DNA of 64,000 nt from Pannonibacter indicus (GTDB lineage: Bacteria > Pseudomonadota > Alphaproteobacteria > Rhizobiales > Stappiaceae), in assembly GCF_001418225.1 (NCBI RefSeq), contig NZ_LIPT01000006.1, positions 62,001-126,000 on the forward strand. Direction: 5' to 3'. Below the pieces are notes generated by a model that saw nothing but the letters and a program-made list of their open reading frames with translations, was not told where the DNA came from and searched no databases. The position numbers and the translations under genes are program-made. Shown in pieces: positions 23,697 through 62,287 of the stretch (positions are counted from its first letter, which is position 1; every line of letters begins with the position of its first letter).

Positions 23697-23981
23697 GATG
23701 CCCCCCGAAGCGGGATGTTTGGTTGAAAGACGGGGCACGCTAGGCAGCACAGACGAAGCTGCGGTGACAGAGCGATGAAGCTTTTGTGACGCAGACCCCG
23801 GAACTGCGGCAGTTGCGCCACAGCCCGCAAGGCTCGGGGTGTCAGACTGCAGATAAATTCTGGACAGAAGCCCCCCGCCGGGTTTCTACTAAGGTACTCC
23901 TTGCGGATGGCTCAACATCCGCTGGCTGGCCACTTGAGTGCCGCCAGCCATTCCCACGCTCTCCTTTTGCGGACACCCAGC

Positions 23982-25181
23982 ATGACACGCGGCTTCTTGC
24001 GCCTTGCCCTTGTGCTTGGCCTGCTTTCCTGCATTGGCCCCTTTGCGGTCGATCTCTATCTGCCGGCCCTGCCGCAGATCACGGCTGGCCTTGGCACGAC
24101 CGCCAGCGCTGCTCAGATGACGTTTACCGCCTATTTCCTCGCCTTTGGCCTTGCCCAGCTGATCTATGGACCGATGGCAGATTGGCTGGGCCGCAAGCCG
24201 CCGGTCTATGCAGGCCTTGCCGTGTTCATCGCCGGATCCGCCATCTGTGCACTGTCTGCGGATATCAACTGGCTTGTCTTTGGCCGCTTCGTGCAGGCCT
24301 TGGGCGCGGCATCTGTCATGGTCATTCCGCGCGCCATCGTGCGCGACATGCACACCGGCACAGAAGCTACTCGATTGATGGCGCTGGTGATGCTGGTGAT
24401 CAGCATCTCGCCGATGCTGGCACCGCTCACCGGCTCAGCCATCATTGCGGTGGGGAGCTGGCGCTTCCTGTTCGTGGCCCTTGGCCTTGCCGCAGCACTG
24501 GCCATGGCCCTCACCGCCTGGCAGCTGCCCGAAACCCTGCCGCCGGAGCGGCGCATGCCGCTGCGGCTGAAAGCCATTTTCGGAGGCTGCCTTGACCTGA
24601 TTCGCGATGCCCGCTTCCTCGGGCTGACGATGACAGGCGGCTTCGGCATGGCGAGTTTCTTCGTCTTCATCGGCGCGGCCTCGTTTGTCTACACCGGCCA
24701 CTATGGCATGAGCCCGGTGGGCTTCAGCCTTGCCTTCGCGCTGAATGCTATCGGCTTTTTCGGCACGTCGCAGCTCGCGGCTGGGCTCGGGCGCAAGCAT
24801 GGCATGGCGCGCGTCGCCTTTCTGGCCGTCACTGGCTTTGCCCTTTGCAACGGGGTGCTGGTGACGCTGGTGGCCTTCGGCTTCGATGCTCTTGCCGTGG
24901 TGATGGTGCTGCTCTTCCTCGGCAATGCCTGCCTTGGTCTCGTCATTGCCCCCACCATGGTGATGGCGCTGGACGATCACGGCGAGAACGCAGGCCTTGC
25001 CTCGTCCCTCGGCGGCACGCTGCAGATGCTGGCTGGCGCCCTGATGCTGGTGCTGGCCAGCCCGTTCTTCGACGGAAGCGTGCTGCCCATGGTGGGCGCC
25101 ATCGCCGCCTGTGCGGCCTGCGCCTTCATCGTCGCTGTCCCCACGCTGGGGCGGAACCGGACCGCACCGCTCCACCCCTGA
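23982..25181 (+). CDS. Bcr/CflA family multidrug efflux MFS transporter
   Basis: This 399-residue transporter has 12 predicted membrane segments and the Bcr/CflA motif set: FAVDLYLPALPQI at the start of TM1, GPMADWLGRKPP in the cytoplasmic loop between TM2 and TM3 (motif A), and a later ISPMLAPLTGSAI. It should export drugs or small metabolites by proton antiport. ATG 23982 is chosen at the family N terminus; the frame is open 27 codons upstream. The specific substrate is unknown. Confidence 0.93.
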   Translation: MTRGFLRLALVLGLLSCIGPFAVDLYLPALPQITAGLGTTASAAQMTFTAYFLAFGLAQLIYGPMADWLGRKPPVYAGLAVFIAGSAICALSADINWLVFGRFVQALGAASVMVIPRAIVRDMHTGTEATRLMALVMLVISISPMLAPLTGSAIIAVGSWRFLFVALGLAAALAMALTAWQLPETLPPERRMPLRLKAIFGGCLDLIRDARFLGLTMTGGFGMASFFVFIGAASFVYTGHYGMSPVGFSLAFALNAIGFFGTSQLAAGLGRKHGMARVAFLAVTGFALCNGVLVTLVAFGFDALAVVMVLLFLGNACLGLVIAPTMVMALDDHGENAGLASSLGGTLQMLAGALMLVLASPFFDGSVLPMVGAIAACAACAFIVAVPTLGRNRTAPLHP

Positions 25182-25514
25182 GGTGGAGCGGCCTCCAGCC
25201 AATCAAACATTGACAACAGCCGCAATTCCCGCCAAAAGCGTGGCCGGTCCTGCCGTTAGAGAGTGTGGATTGAGACGATGATGTTCCGGCTTGCTGCCGC
25301 AGACATGGGCATTGAGGCGATGGCTCCGGCCAGCGCTGCTGCCGCTCGTCTTATGACCACCGCAGCCAAACTCACTAAAACCACCGCTAAAACCACCGTT
25401 TGACGGTGCCTCTCGTCCCGCGCTCCCCCGGGATGGGCGGGCGCCGGAGAGCCGGGCAGGTGCCGCGTGTGCGGACCCGCCGGGCAAGCGGGGAGACGGA
25501 TGAGAGAGGAATTC
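25182..25514. other. 333-base gap before asd
   Basis: This gap has one short reading frame, 25278-25403, described separately as a candidate leader peptide. A TTGACA at 25210-25215 could be a -35 element, but no matching -10 hexamer is visible at the usual spacing. The remainder, 25404-25514, is very GC-rich and has potential to fold. Confidence 0.5.
25278..25403 (+). CDS. Candidate Thr/Lys-rich leader peptide upstream of asd
   Basis: A 41-codon frame starts with ATGATG and ends TGA, 111 bases before asd. The last 15 codons encode TTAAKLTKTTAKTTV, with seven Thr and three Lys. Thr and Lys are both end products of the pathway in which asd acts, which is the composition expected of an attenuation or translation-coupling leader. 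Just after its stop, CCTCTC (25409-25414) is complementary to GAGAGG (25504-25509), the ribosome site of asd. No T-run terminator is seen. Translation and regulation are inference. Confidence 0.5.
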   Translation: MMFRLAAADMGIEAMAPASAAAARLMTTAAKLTKTTAKTTV

Positions 25515-26549
25515 ATGGGCTACAAGATCGCCATTGTTGGTGCCACGGGCAATGTGGGCCGCGAAATGCTGGACATTCTGGCCGAGCGCGGCTTCCCGGC
25601 GGCTGAAGTCGTGCCGCTGGCCTCGCGCCGGTCGCAGGGCACCGAAGTCTCCTTCGGCGACAAGACGCTGAAGGTACAGGCGCTGGAAAACTATGATTTC
25701 TCCGACACCGATATCTGCCTGATGTCCGCCGGCGGCAGCGTTGCCAAGGAATGGGCTCCGAAGATCGGCGCACAGGGCTGCGTCGTCATCGATAACTCCT
25801 CCGCCTGGCGCTACGACGCGGACGTGCCGCTGATCGTGCCGGAAGTGAATGCCGACGCAGTTGCCGGCTTTTCCAAGAAGAACATCATCGCCAACCCGAA
25901 CTGTTCCACCGCGCAGCTCGTCGTGGCGCTGAAGCCGCTGCATGACGCGGCCACCATCAAGCGCGTCGTCATCTCCACCTACCAGTCCGTTTCGGGCGCC
26001 GGCAAGGAGGCGATGGAAGAGCTGTTCAACCAGACCCGCGCCATCTTCGTGAATGATCCGGTCGAGAACCAGAAGTTCACCAAGCGCATCGCCTTCAACG
26101 TCATCCCGCACATCGACGTGTTCATGGAAGACGGCTACACGAAGGAAGAGTGGAAGGTTCTGGCCGAGACCAAGAAGATCCTTGATCCGAAGATCAAGGT
26201 CACCTGCACCGCCGTGCGCGTGCCGGTGTTCATCAGCCACTCGGAAAGCGTCAACATCGAGTTCGAGAAGCCGATCTCGGCCGATGAAGCGCGCGATATC
26301 CTGCGCGAGGCGCCGGGCTGCCTTGTCATCGACAAGCGCGAGGACGGCGGCTACATCACGCCTCACGAGACCGCCGGTGAAGACGCCACCTACATCTCGC
26401 GCATCCGCGAGGATGCCACGGTGGAGAACGGCCTCAACATCTGGGTCGTGGCCGACAACCTGCGCAAGGGTGCAGCCCTCAACGCCGTGCAGATCGCCGA
26501 AGTTCTGGTGAACCGCGGCCTGATCAAGCCGAAGAAGCAGGCCGCCTGA
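25515..26549 (+). CDS. asd: Aspartate-semialdehyde dehydrogenase
   Basis: Asd reduces aspartyl phosphate to aspartate semialdehyde, the branch-point for lysine, diaminopimelate, threonine and methionine. The 344-residue protein begins YKIAIVGATGNVGREML (NADP-binding). The catalytic Cys lies in NPNCSTAQLVVAL; the later segment RVPVFISHSESVNIEF supplies substrate-binding residues. An AGAGAGGA ribosome site is five bases before ATG 25515. The gene is monocistronic by position, ending at a clear terminator, and is preceded by a candidate Thr/Lys leader. Confidence 0.97.
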   Translation: MGYKIAIVGATGNVGREMLDILAERGFPAAEVVPLASRRSQGTEVSFGDKTLKVQALENYDFSDTDICLMSAGGSVAKEWAPKIGAQGCVVIDNSSAWRYDADVPLIVPEVNADAVAGFSKKNIIANPNCSTAQLVVALKPLHDAATIKRVVISTYQSVSGAGKEAMEELFNQTRAIFVNDPVENQKFTKRIAFNVIPHIDVFMEDGYTKEEWKVLAETKKILDPKIKVTCTAVRVPVFISHSESVNIEFEKPISADEARDILREAPGCLVIDKREDGGYITPHETAGEDATYISRIREDATVENGLNIWVVADNLRKGAALNAVQIAEVLVNRGLIKPKKQAA

Positions 26550-26578: not shown

Positions 26579-26609
26579 AAAAGCCCCGGATTGAACCTCC
26601 GGGGCTTTT
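26579..26609 (+). terminator. asd intrinsic terminator
   Basis: A 12-base perfect stem, AAAAGCCCCGGA (26579-26590) with TCCGGGGCTTTT (26598-26609), has its T-run within the end of the stem and starts 29 bases after the asd stop. Confidence 0.92.
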
Positions 26610-26680
26610 CAGCTTTAACATGCCCGCCAGAACAGAACGCCGCGCGCCGGACAGGCAGCCTGCGGCCATGGAGGAAACAG

Positions 26681-27394
26681 ATGAGGGGCATCTTGGGCGC
26701 AGCCGCTAGAGGCCATGCCGCCACGCGCTTTTCGGACCAGCTGGTGCAGGCCGCCGGAGCGAACTGGACCGCTGCCACCGAACATCCCTTCACCCATGCC
26801 ATCGGCAGCGGCACCATGCCCCGGGACGCCTATGTGCGCTATCTCATCGAGGACTATACGTTCATCACGGATCTGGCTTCCGTGATCGGCTATCTGGTGG
26901 CCAAGGCCCCGGACATGGCGGCAAAGCGCCCGTTCGCGGCGTTTCTGGCGCTGCTGACCTCCAACGAGAACGACTATTTCATCCGCTCCTTTGCAGCGCT
27001 CGATGTGGCGCCGGAGGTCTATCTTGAGGCCGCACAGGGGCCTGTGACCCGTGCCTTCGCCAGCCTGCTGCTGGAGGCGGCCGAGGCAAGCTACGAGGAA
27101 GGGCTTGCCTGCCTGCTCTGCGCCGAATGGGTCTATCTGACCTGGGGCGAACGAGAGGCCCGAAAGCCGCGCCCGGCCGATTTCTGGCTGGCCGAATGGA
27201 TTGATCTGCACGCCGGTCCCGGCTTCGAGGGCTTCGTCTCGTTCCTGCGCGACGAGATGGACCGGACTGCCGCCCGCCTTACGGAAACTGAGAGAAACCG
27301 GGCCATGGAGCGGTTTGTGCACATGTGCGCACTGGAAAAATCCTTCTTCGACGCGGCCTGGAACGGCCCAGCAGGAGCGGCCCAACCGGCCTGA
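26681..27394 (+). CDS. TenA family protein (thiamine salvage aminopyrimidine hydrolase type)
   Basis: This 237-residue all-helical protein belongs to the TenA/thiaminase II family, which hydrolyses thiamine breakdown products for salvage. Indicators are HPFTHAIGSGTMPRDAYVRYLIEDY and, near the end, HMCALEKSFFDAAW. At the position of the catalytic Cys (LPCYW in Bacillus subtilis TenA) it has LLCAEW, so the Cys is displaced by Ala and a Glu sits beside Trp, as in the TenA_E subgroup. ATG 26681 follows GGAGGAAACAG. It precedes an EamA transporter. Confidence 0.85.
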   Translation: MRGILGAAARGHAATRFSDQLVQAAGANWTAATEHPFTHAIGSGTMPRDAYVRYLIEDYTFITDLASVIGYLVAKAPDMAAKRPFAAFLALLTSNENDYFIRSFAALDVAPEVYLEAAQGPVTRAFASLLLEAAEASYEEGLACLLCAEWVYLTWGEREARKPRPADFWLAEWIDLHAGPGFEGFVSFLRDEMDRTAARLTETERNRAMERFVHMCALEKSFFDAAWNGPAGAAQPA

Positions 27395-61937: not shown

Positions 61938-62287
61938 TTAATAGAAATTAACCGGAATTTGCATTCTGCCACGCAGAATAAAATCAATAACAAAGATAAA
62001 CATCATTAAACCAAACAAAACGCACGAAGATCAGTTTTATCGGCAAAGAAAACCTTTTGGAAACCACTCCAATCCTAATGTCGGAAAGCTGATTGTCAGG
62101 TTGTGCGTCGTCAGCGATTGCAGACGGAAGGAAGTGGCACTGCGACCCGCTACTTCCTTCCGGCCCGCAGCACTCTTCCCCCCATCTTTGAAATGCAGAC
62201 CGGGACAAGATGTCCGGCTATGCAACTCTGTGCTTTGCGCCCGGCCCGGTGAGGGCTAAAAGAGGCGCGGGGCGCAGGAGGTTGGAC
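61938..62287. other. 350-base intergenic region, AT-rich first half
   Basis: The first 100 bases (about 61938-62050) are notably AT-rich, and a small hairpin (ATTCTG with CAGAAT) lies at about 61963-61979. A strong stem-loop follows at 62125-62162. No protein frame with a ribosome site was found. A promoter for the pentapeptide gene presumably lies here but was not pinpointed. Confidence 0.5.
62125..62162. repeat. 14-base stem-loop between the patatin and pentapeptide genes
   Basis: Arms 62125-62138 and 62149-62162 pair over 14 positions, including one G-T pair, with a ten-base loop. The outer 11 bases, CGGAAGGAAGT and ACTTCCTTCCG, are perfectly complementary. No T-tract follows. Confidence 0.75.

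Follow-up and report, generated by a model that had tools for sequence, protein, structure and literature searches.

A conserved Thr/Lys-rich leader frame precedes asd in Pannonibacter indicus and its relatives and is very probably an attenuator

Results

The asd locus and its leader frame

The window analysed here is the whole 64,000-nucleotide stretch of the Pannonibacter indicus genome between positions 62,001 and 126,000 of contig NZ_LIPT01000006.1; asd, its leader frame and the RNA elements described below all lie on its + strand. Asd (aspartate-semialdehyde dehydrogenase) supplies the synthesis of Lys, Thr and Met as well as cell-wall diaminopimelate. The gene (25515..26549, 344 aa) is assigned by NCBIfam and Pfam: its product scores 475 bits against TIGR01296 asd_B (cut-off 324.2), also matches NF011456 and contains PF01118 and PF02774. 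Upstream, at 23901-25181, is the gene for a Bcr/CflA-family MFS transporter, whose match sits away from asd in several relatives, and downstream, at 26591-27394, is a TENA/THI-4 family gene. A terminator-like hairpin with TTTT, read by eye 3' of asd (26579..26609), suggests that the asd transcript comprises a single gene; because the end of asd has this ordinary terminator-like hairpin, the genome is not generally devoid of U-tracts.

Between the transporter gene and asd is a 41-codon frame (25278..25403) with an ATG at 25278-25280 (or a start at 25281) and a TGA stop at 25401-25403. Its final 15 codons (25356..25400) encode TTAAKLTKTTAKTTV, with seven Thr and three Lys. The frame, its stop, the CCTCTC motif at 25409-25414, GAGAGG at 25504-25509 and the asd start at 25515 are all where the initial annotation had placed them. 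The Thr/Lys enrichment is far outside chance: of the 1,625 open 15-codon tails that the window contains over all six frames, no other has seven or more Thr and no other reaches a Thr plus Lys sum of 10, the runner-up by that sum having six. A larger collection of 17,443 tails came from loci of at least 3 kb, near-copies and duplicates included; its 121 tails with at least five Thr and a Thr plus Lys sum of at least seven are all sense-strand and lie no more than 400 nt upstream of asd. These 121 are not independent of each other. The best tail near hom, lysC or thrC of the same genome reaches a Thr plus Lys sum of only 5, and we therefore see no similar leader at those genes.

The leader peptide matches no Pfam family, and Rfam covariance models give no match to the window at the gathering score or to 25150-25600 up to an E of 1. 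TTGACA at 25210..25215, read by eye, is a weak candidate for the -35 element of a leader transcript, and TTGAC stands at the same place in several relatives when the upstream alignment is inspected by eye; a promoter scan of 25150-25600 returned no full match and scored no promoter-like site.

The leader is conserved across Hyphomicrobiales and beyond

We scored a leader as present when the last 15 codons of a frame held at least four Thr, with Thr plus half the Lys count at least five, and the stop lay 65-175 nt before the asd start (60-200 nt in one of the scans). The locus search matched 193 of 199 genomes, and upstream DNA was taken from part of them; 170 of 229 examined loci, duplicates included, pass the rule. 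In Hyphomicrobiales, the order of the window, the leader is present in 77 of the 111 genomes with upstream DNA and in 26 of 40 families, a sample that is not random, 50 of the genomes being best-match loci and the rest either hand-picked at one to three per family or returned by a further search. Counted by relatedness, it is found in the window's own genome (1/1), in 4/4 genomes of the genus, 19/19 of the family and 53/87 of the order. Thirty-four genomes of the order have no leader by the rule, and the 14 families without one are f2, f7, f8, f18, f26, f31-f36, f39, f46 and f50. Among the named relatives, of which Roseibium and Stappia are nearest by Asd, the leader precedes asd in 78 of 80, both misses being Ancylobacter. 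The rule itself lets through some odd short frames (L049, L120, L129 and L140) and misses L188, whose Thr/Lys leader frame is clear but stops 235 nt short of asd, a far longer spacer than most relatives have; the counts are uncorrected for either error.

Of 106 genomes from other orders 14 carry the leader, and these represent 6 of 68 families. Among the last 40 of the 106 loci, six (G393, G304, G455, G434, G245 and G501) were chosen from leader-bearing families, and the count before those 40 was 8 of 66. L153-L155 (family f154) are Thr-rich asd leaders from outside the order of the window.

The initial annotation had proposed aligning the asd upstream regions of relatives. In such alignments the frame is conserved: the Thr/Lys tail is kept, frame length varies in threes, conserved blocks follow the stop, and the tails show an excess of synonymous changes, quantified below. 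An ATG stands 37-46 codons before the stop in most of the 31 loci listed. The three Sinorhizobium loci (L094, L108 and L126) have tails with six Thr and three Lys, and the frames of L094 and L108 are 38 codons long.

A small frame of this kind is already in print. The account of SEP5 of S. meliloti in a 2023 Ribo-seq study reports that it is translated and carries six Thr and three Lys codons near its end, calls it 'possibly a leader peptide' and places it in the 5' UTR of an 'aspartate dehydrogenase' gene, which we take to be asd (PMC10117765). S. meliloti is not among our named loci, and the three Sinorhizobium loci stand in for it. Like SEP5 as it is described there, the window leader is a small frame with late Thr and Lys codons before asd, and it suits a leader of that type: clustered Thr and Lys codons end it and asd follows directly. 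The statement of the initial annotation that no asd leader had been described in this group is thus not quite right. The same account calls SEP5 'conserved only in Sinorhizobium' (PMC10117765), a range that is too narrow, the leader being found across the order and beyond. The literature that we searched holds such a frame before asd in one species only, and papers outside the searched set may mention others.

Codon usage and constraint in the tails

Over the last 15 codons of 67 non-redundant loci, of which three belong to other orders, Thr makes up 43.5% and Lys 15.7% of residues, against 5.3% and 6.7% in Asd. Each of the 67 leaders has at least one Lys, and the totals are 437 Thr versus 158 Lys. 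Met (1.4%) and Ile (1.9%) show no enrichment in these tails, though both are products of the Asd route. The Lys codons are strongly biased, with AAA outnumbering AAG by 121 to 37 in the tails and the reverse, 71 to 913, in asd (43 full genes). A general liking for A at third positions fails to explain this, because the same tails favour ACG over ACA (156 versus 40). Fisher tests on codon bias give p values of 4e-78 and 7e-27 on related rows that are not independent. A modelling paper, in the part that bears on codon choice, identifies attenuator codons with the codons at which translation responds most strongly to starvation (PMC1183508).

Comparing 37 disjoint pairs of related tails, with rows anchored at the stop and no gaps, we counted 42, 52 and 91 changes at codon positions 1, 2 and 3, respectively. 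Synonymous changes account for 61 of the 141 changed codons, against 27.6% expected for random single changes, and the remaining 80 are nonsynonymous.

A strand 3' of the leader stop is complementary to the ribosome-binding region of asd

A small hairpin spans the stop codon (25394..25408), with CACCG at 25394-25398 pairing with CGGTG at 25404-25408. In an alignment of 26 Stappiaceae-type sequences 94.4% of its cells are paired, and because it hardly varies it provides no evidence either way. The MFE fold then contains a local hairpin, H1 (25404..25446), with 17 pairs and the loop CGCTCCCC, which we propose as an anti-sequestor. In the Stappiaceae-type alignment 84.5% of H1 cells are paired, a share that 2 of 500 shuffles reached, and 12 are changed on both sides, a number that none of the 500 reached; the partner slid by +3 gives 10. 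Weaker measures were reached by more of the 500 shuffles: 29 for double-change pairs, 51 for the covariation score and 343 for further pair types. Own against exchanged arms, H1 gives a z of -9.3 by duplex energy (63 loci) and 1.35 by helix length (60 loci). A second hairpin, H2 (25451..25485), lies between H1 and the ribosome site in the predicted fold only, and its length and sequence differ among relatives. RNAalifold found almost no consensus in the raw Stappiaceae-type alignment, because spacer lengths differ.

The ribosome-binding region of asd (25490..25509, read from the sequence and aligned) comprises a pre-SD element, GGGGAG at 25490-25495, and the SD itself, GAGAGG at 25504-25509. 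The complementarity of CCTCTC to GAGAGG, pointed out in the initial annotation, is present; as a description it is incomplete, being part of a longer complementarity. In full, CTCTCGTCC (25410..25418) is complementary to GGATGAGAG (25498-25506), which overlaps the SD, and CTCCCC (25423..25428) is complementary to the pre-SD. We had initially tested the SD pairing by duplex energy, which gave an uncorrected p of 0.0001 and, when centred, a z of -3.74 with controls of -1.35 to -1.89, several other test windows being not significant; these tests were replaced by a test on helix length. By the latter, the mean SD helix is longer between own than between exchanged partners at 60 loci (z 3.06, p 0.002; reversed control z 1.11), and SD helices of at least 8 bp are no commoner than by exchange (2 observed versus 1.6). 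The pre-SD pairing reaches a z of 4.84 at the 60 loci, against 1.07 for the reversed control and 1.81 for leaderless loci, and here helices of at least 8 bp occur at 30 of the 60 against 17.8 expected (p 0.0001). Examples of such own-partner helices are 12 bp in L209 and 11 bp in L216.

In the Stappiaceae-type alignment 96.2% of cells of the pre-SD pairing are paired with none changed on both sides, and the SD pairing is not significant within this alignment alone. As an example of co-variation, CCCTCACC faces GGTGAGGG in L119, and at the same place in L131 CCCTCTCT faces GGAGAGGG. In the consensus fold of Rhizobiaceae-type sequences, GCUCUCU pairs with AGAGAGC at the asd SD. A strand of the leader RNA is thus complementary to the SD region and co-varies with it across families, as in translation attenuators.

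U-tract terminators are rare in the order and common among leaders of other orders

As the initial annotation had noted, no T-run terminator is visible: a scan of 25150-25600 found no terminator-like site with a T-run, and in the order as a whole the same kind of site follows only 2 of 166 leaders (L190 and L191). Leaderless loci have a U-tract terminator in 5 of 129 cases (last 150 nt, same scan), and a run of five T follows the stop of 4 of 170 leaders. The U-tract terminator and the mutually exclusive antiterminator and terminator of thrL/trpL-type systems are therefore both absent between the leader and asd in the window.

Of the 14 leaders of other orders, 8 are followed by a GC hairpin and U-tract according to the scan, and L274 adds one by eye; L153-L155, L166 and L279 have no U-tract terminator by scan. 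The nine loci in which Thr/Lys leaders are followed by U-tract terminators (L251, L272, L274, L276, L278 and L280-L283) come from families f81, f87, f140 and f179, and they are apparently classical transcription attenuators of asd. In several other-order leaders the strand after the stop can, by eye, pair with the 5' arm of the terminator, an antiterminator layout. When the nine were folded, the antiterminator was favoured at some ribosome position in five (L251, L272, L278, L280 and L282) and not favoured in L274, L276, L281 and L283.

A quick tree of Asd, built from 55 hand-picked rows, separates the nine terminator-type leaders from the terminator-free ones of the order, and leader presence needs at least 14 changes on it; the root of this tree is an arbitrary midpoint and many of its forks are weak.

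Folding with a ribosome on the leader

We folded the window sequence with the ribosome front at successive positions, given relative to the first base of the stop. RNA left free from 45-60 nt upstream of the stop has an SD accessibility of 0.46-0.50. This rises to 0.60-0.77 for fronts between -30 and +3, and fronts at or past +12, as for a terminating ribosome, give 0.75-0.80. Between the last two ranges it drops: over +4 to +10 it is 0.36-0.51, and over +4 to +6, with the ribosome on the last Thr codons, 0.36-0.43. The folding that the initial annotation had suggested thus gives a divided answer: the predicted SD opens for most positions in the codon run, as a switch model would have it, and its accessibility drops at the last Thr codons, which, together with the terminating ribosome, do not fit that model. 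Averaged by family, the profile over 19 front positions hardly changes and shows no clean opening of the SD on the Thr codons; in Rhizobiaceae the SD remains closed, at 0.20-0.23, for fronts short of +20.

The trigger put forward in the initial annotation, a ribosome on the late Thr codons that covers CCTCTC directly, did not hold up. By toeprint geometry, a ribosome with the last Thr codon (25395-25397) in its A site would presumably have its front at about 25407-25408, and CCTCTC begins at 25409. We reject direct occlusion because the front falls short of the motif and SD accessibility falls precisely there. H1, a conserved hairpin that would capture CCTCTC, makes a better candidate for the structure that frees the SD.

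With H1 locked, predicted SD accessibility goes up in 19 of 25 Stappiaceae-type loci, 31 of 47 others and 12 of 25 Rhizobiaceae loci. Outside Rhizobiaceae the gain is small: in the Stappiaceae-type loci it is 0.238 against a mean of 0.183 and a maximum of 0.230 for 20 swapped local regions; in the other loci it is 0.168 against a swapped mean of 0.132 and maximum of 0.166, and it is reversed in Rhizobiaceae. As modelled, H1 may act as a competing anti-sequestor in Stappiaceae-type loci and not in Rhizobiaceae. The folds are equilibrium folds that include neither pseudoknots nor co-transcriptional folding; being limited in this way, and recovering only part of the switch in the terminator-type relatives, they neither prove nor disprove switching.

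Discussion

The conserved Thr/Lys leader of asd is, with high probability, an attenuator of some kind, and like the ribosome-mediated attenuators of the thrL/trpL type it has a leader frame with regulatory codons for products of the pathway. Its wide conservation suggests that it would let the cell tune asd to the supply of Thr and Lys. Our preferred reading, which we consider reasonably likely, is a ribosome-mediated attenuator that senses Thr and probably Lys and acts here on translation.

We infer that the frame is translated in this organism and that ribosomes stall on it, the RNA then switching between two structures in the following direction. When Thr-tRNA is scarce, and probably also when Lys-tRNA is, a ribosome would stall in the Thr/Lys run. 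The RNA after the leader stop could then fold into H1, capturing the pyrimidine strand 25409-25420, the asd ribosome site would be open, and Asd would be made. When supply is good, the ribosome would run to the stop and disturb the 5' half of H1, leaving CTCTCGTCC and CTCCCC free to pair with their partners in and ahead of the asd SD, GGATGAGAG and GGGGAG. With the SD region paired, translation of asd would start less often. Such a switch is possible because the strand that H1 would capture is also the one that would pair with the SD.

The initial annotation had preferred translation over transcription attenuation, and the co-variation of the SD complementarity and the lack of U-tracts favour the same choice; in the order of the window the attenuator probably acts on translation. 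The alternative is that transcription stops when Thr and Lys are plentiful without a normal U-tract, at a GC-rich hairpin or through Rho acting on RNA that a moving or missing ribosome leaves bare. Hairpins are predicted between leader and asd, and similar leaders of other orders do have U-tract terminators (8 of 14 by scan, plus L274). Yet only 2 of 166 leaders in the order have one, while the end of asd appears by eye to have its own, and the SD complementarity co-varies, a thing that termination does not need; we regard this alternative as unlikely. Still less likely is a plain translated upstream frame whose slow Thr/Lys run would serve to hold the RNA open or to bring ribosomes to asd, with no sensing of one amino acid by alternative folds. 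The family-wide folding scan, with no clean switch, would agree with it, and as far as its account of SEP5 goes PMC10117765 shows only that SEP5 is translated; against it stand the specific enrichment of Thr and Lys before a gene of the same pathway, the AAA bias and the terminator-type relatives.

Whether both amino acids are read is a separate matter. In a variant of the preferred reading Thr alone would be sensed, and the Lys codons, mostly AAA, would serve as A-rich, weakly structured spacers. Thr far exceeds Lys in the tails (437 versus 158), and a need for unstructured RNA could underlie the AAA preference; Lys is nevertheless found in each of the 67 non-redundant tails and is also a product of the Asd route, and we think this variant somewhat improbable. 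That the frame is an untranslated chance product, or a by-product of an ACC/AAA-rich RNA motif, is hardly credible. Nonsynonymous changes are indeed common (80 of 141), but length changes are in frame, the ATG is at a similar distance in most relatives, third positions show an excess of changes (91 against 42 and 52), and SEP5 is reported in that study's account of it as translated (PMC10117765).

Attenuators of this kind are already known. The thrL and trpL attenuators likewise have a leader frame with codons for the product of the pathway, and E. coli thrL reads Thr and Ile; compared with them the asd leader of the window has no U-tract terminator, as is true of nearly all leaders in the order, would control asd alone and has two amino acids in one run. 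Translation attenuators of the erm type share the leader peptide, the alternative hairpins and the sequestration of the SD, but there the ribosome is stalled by a drug acting on the nascent chain, and in the asd leader it would be stalled by amino-acid shortage. The LEU element of leuA in Actinobacteria, as set out in the relevant part of its description, also combines a regulatory codon run with pairing to the SD of the gene; in that element a pseudoknot is proposed and it is the run of Leu codons that pairs with the SD (PMC1262725), whereas in asd the pairing strand follows the stop. The parts of PMC1273637 that deal with leader peptides and with threonine name no asd element. The account of SEP5 in PMC10117765, the one suggested member in print, includes no test of RNA structure or regulation, whereas the leader of the window type spans the order and beyond. 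What is new is this breadth, together with the AAA bias, the co-variation with the SD and the existence of two types of output.

Perhaps, although we lean slightly against it, the output of a single old Thr/Lys attenuator of asd shifted, to transcription termination in some orders and to translation in Hyphomicrobiales; two end products would then be read in one run of codons, with Lys mostly as AAA. The two types of leader may instead have separate or repeated origins. With two types of output, what seems to be the same leader provides a natural experiment in how an attenuator moves from one level, transcription or translation, to the other, and our results correct the claim that SEP5 is confined to Sinorhizobium. 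If the leader does read both Thr and Lys, it would be a simple two-input controller at a branch point, spread through a very large bacterial group.
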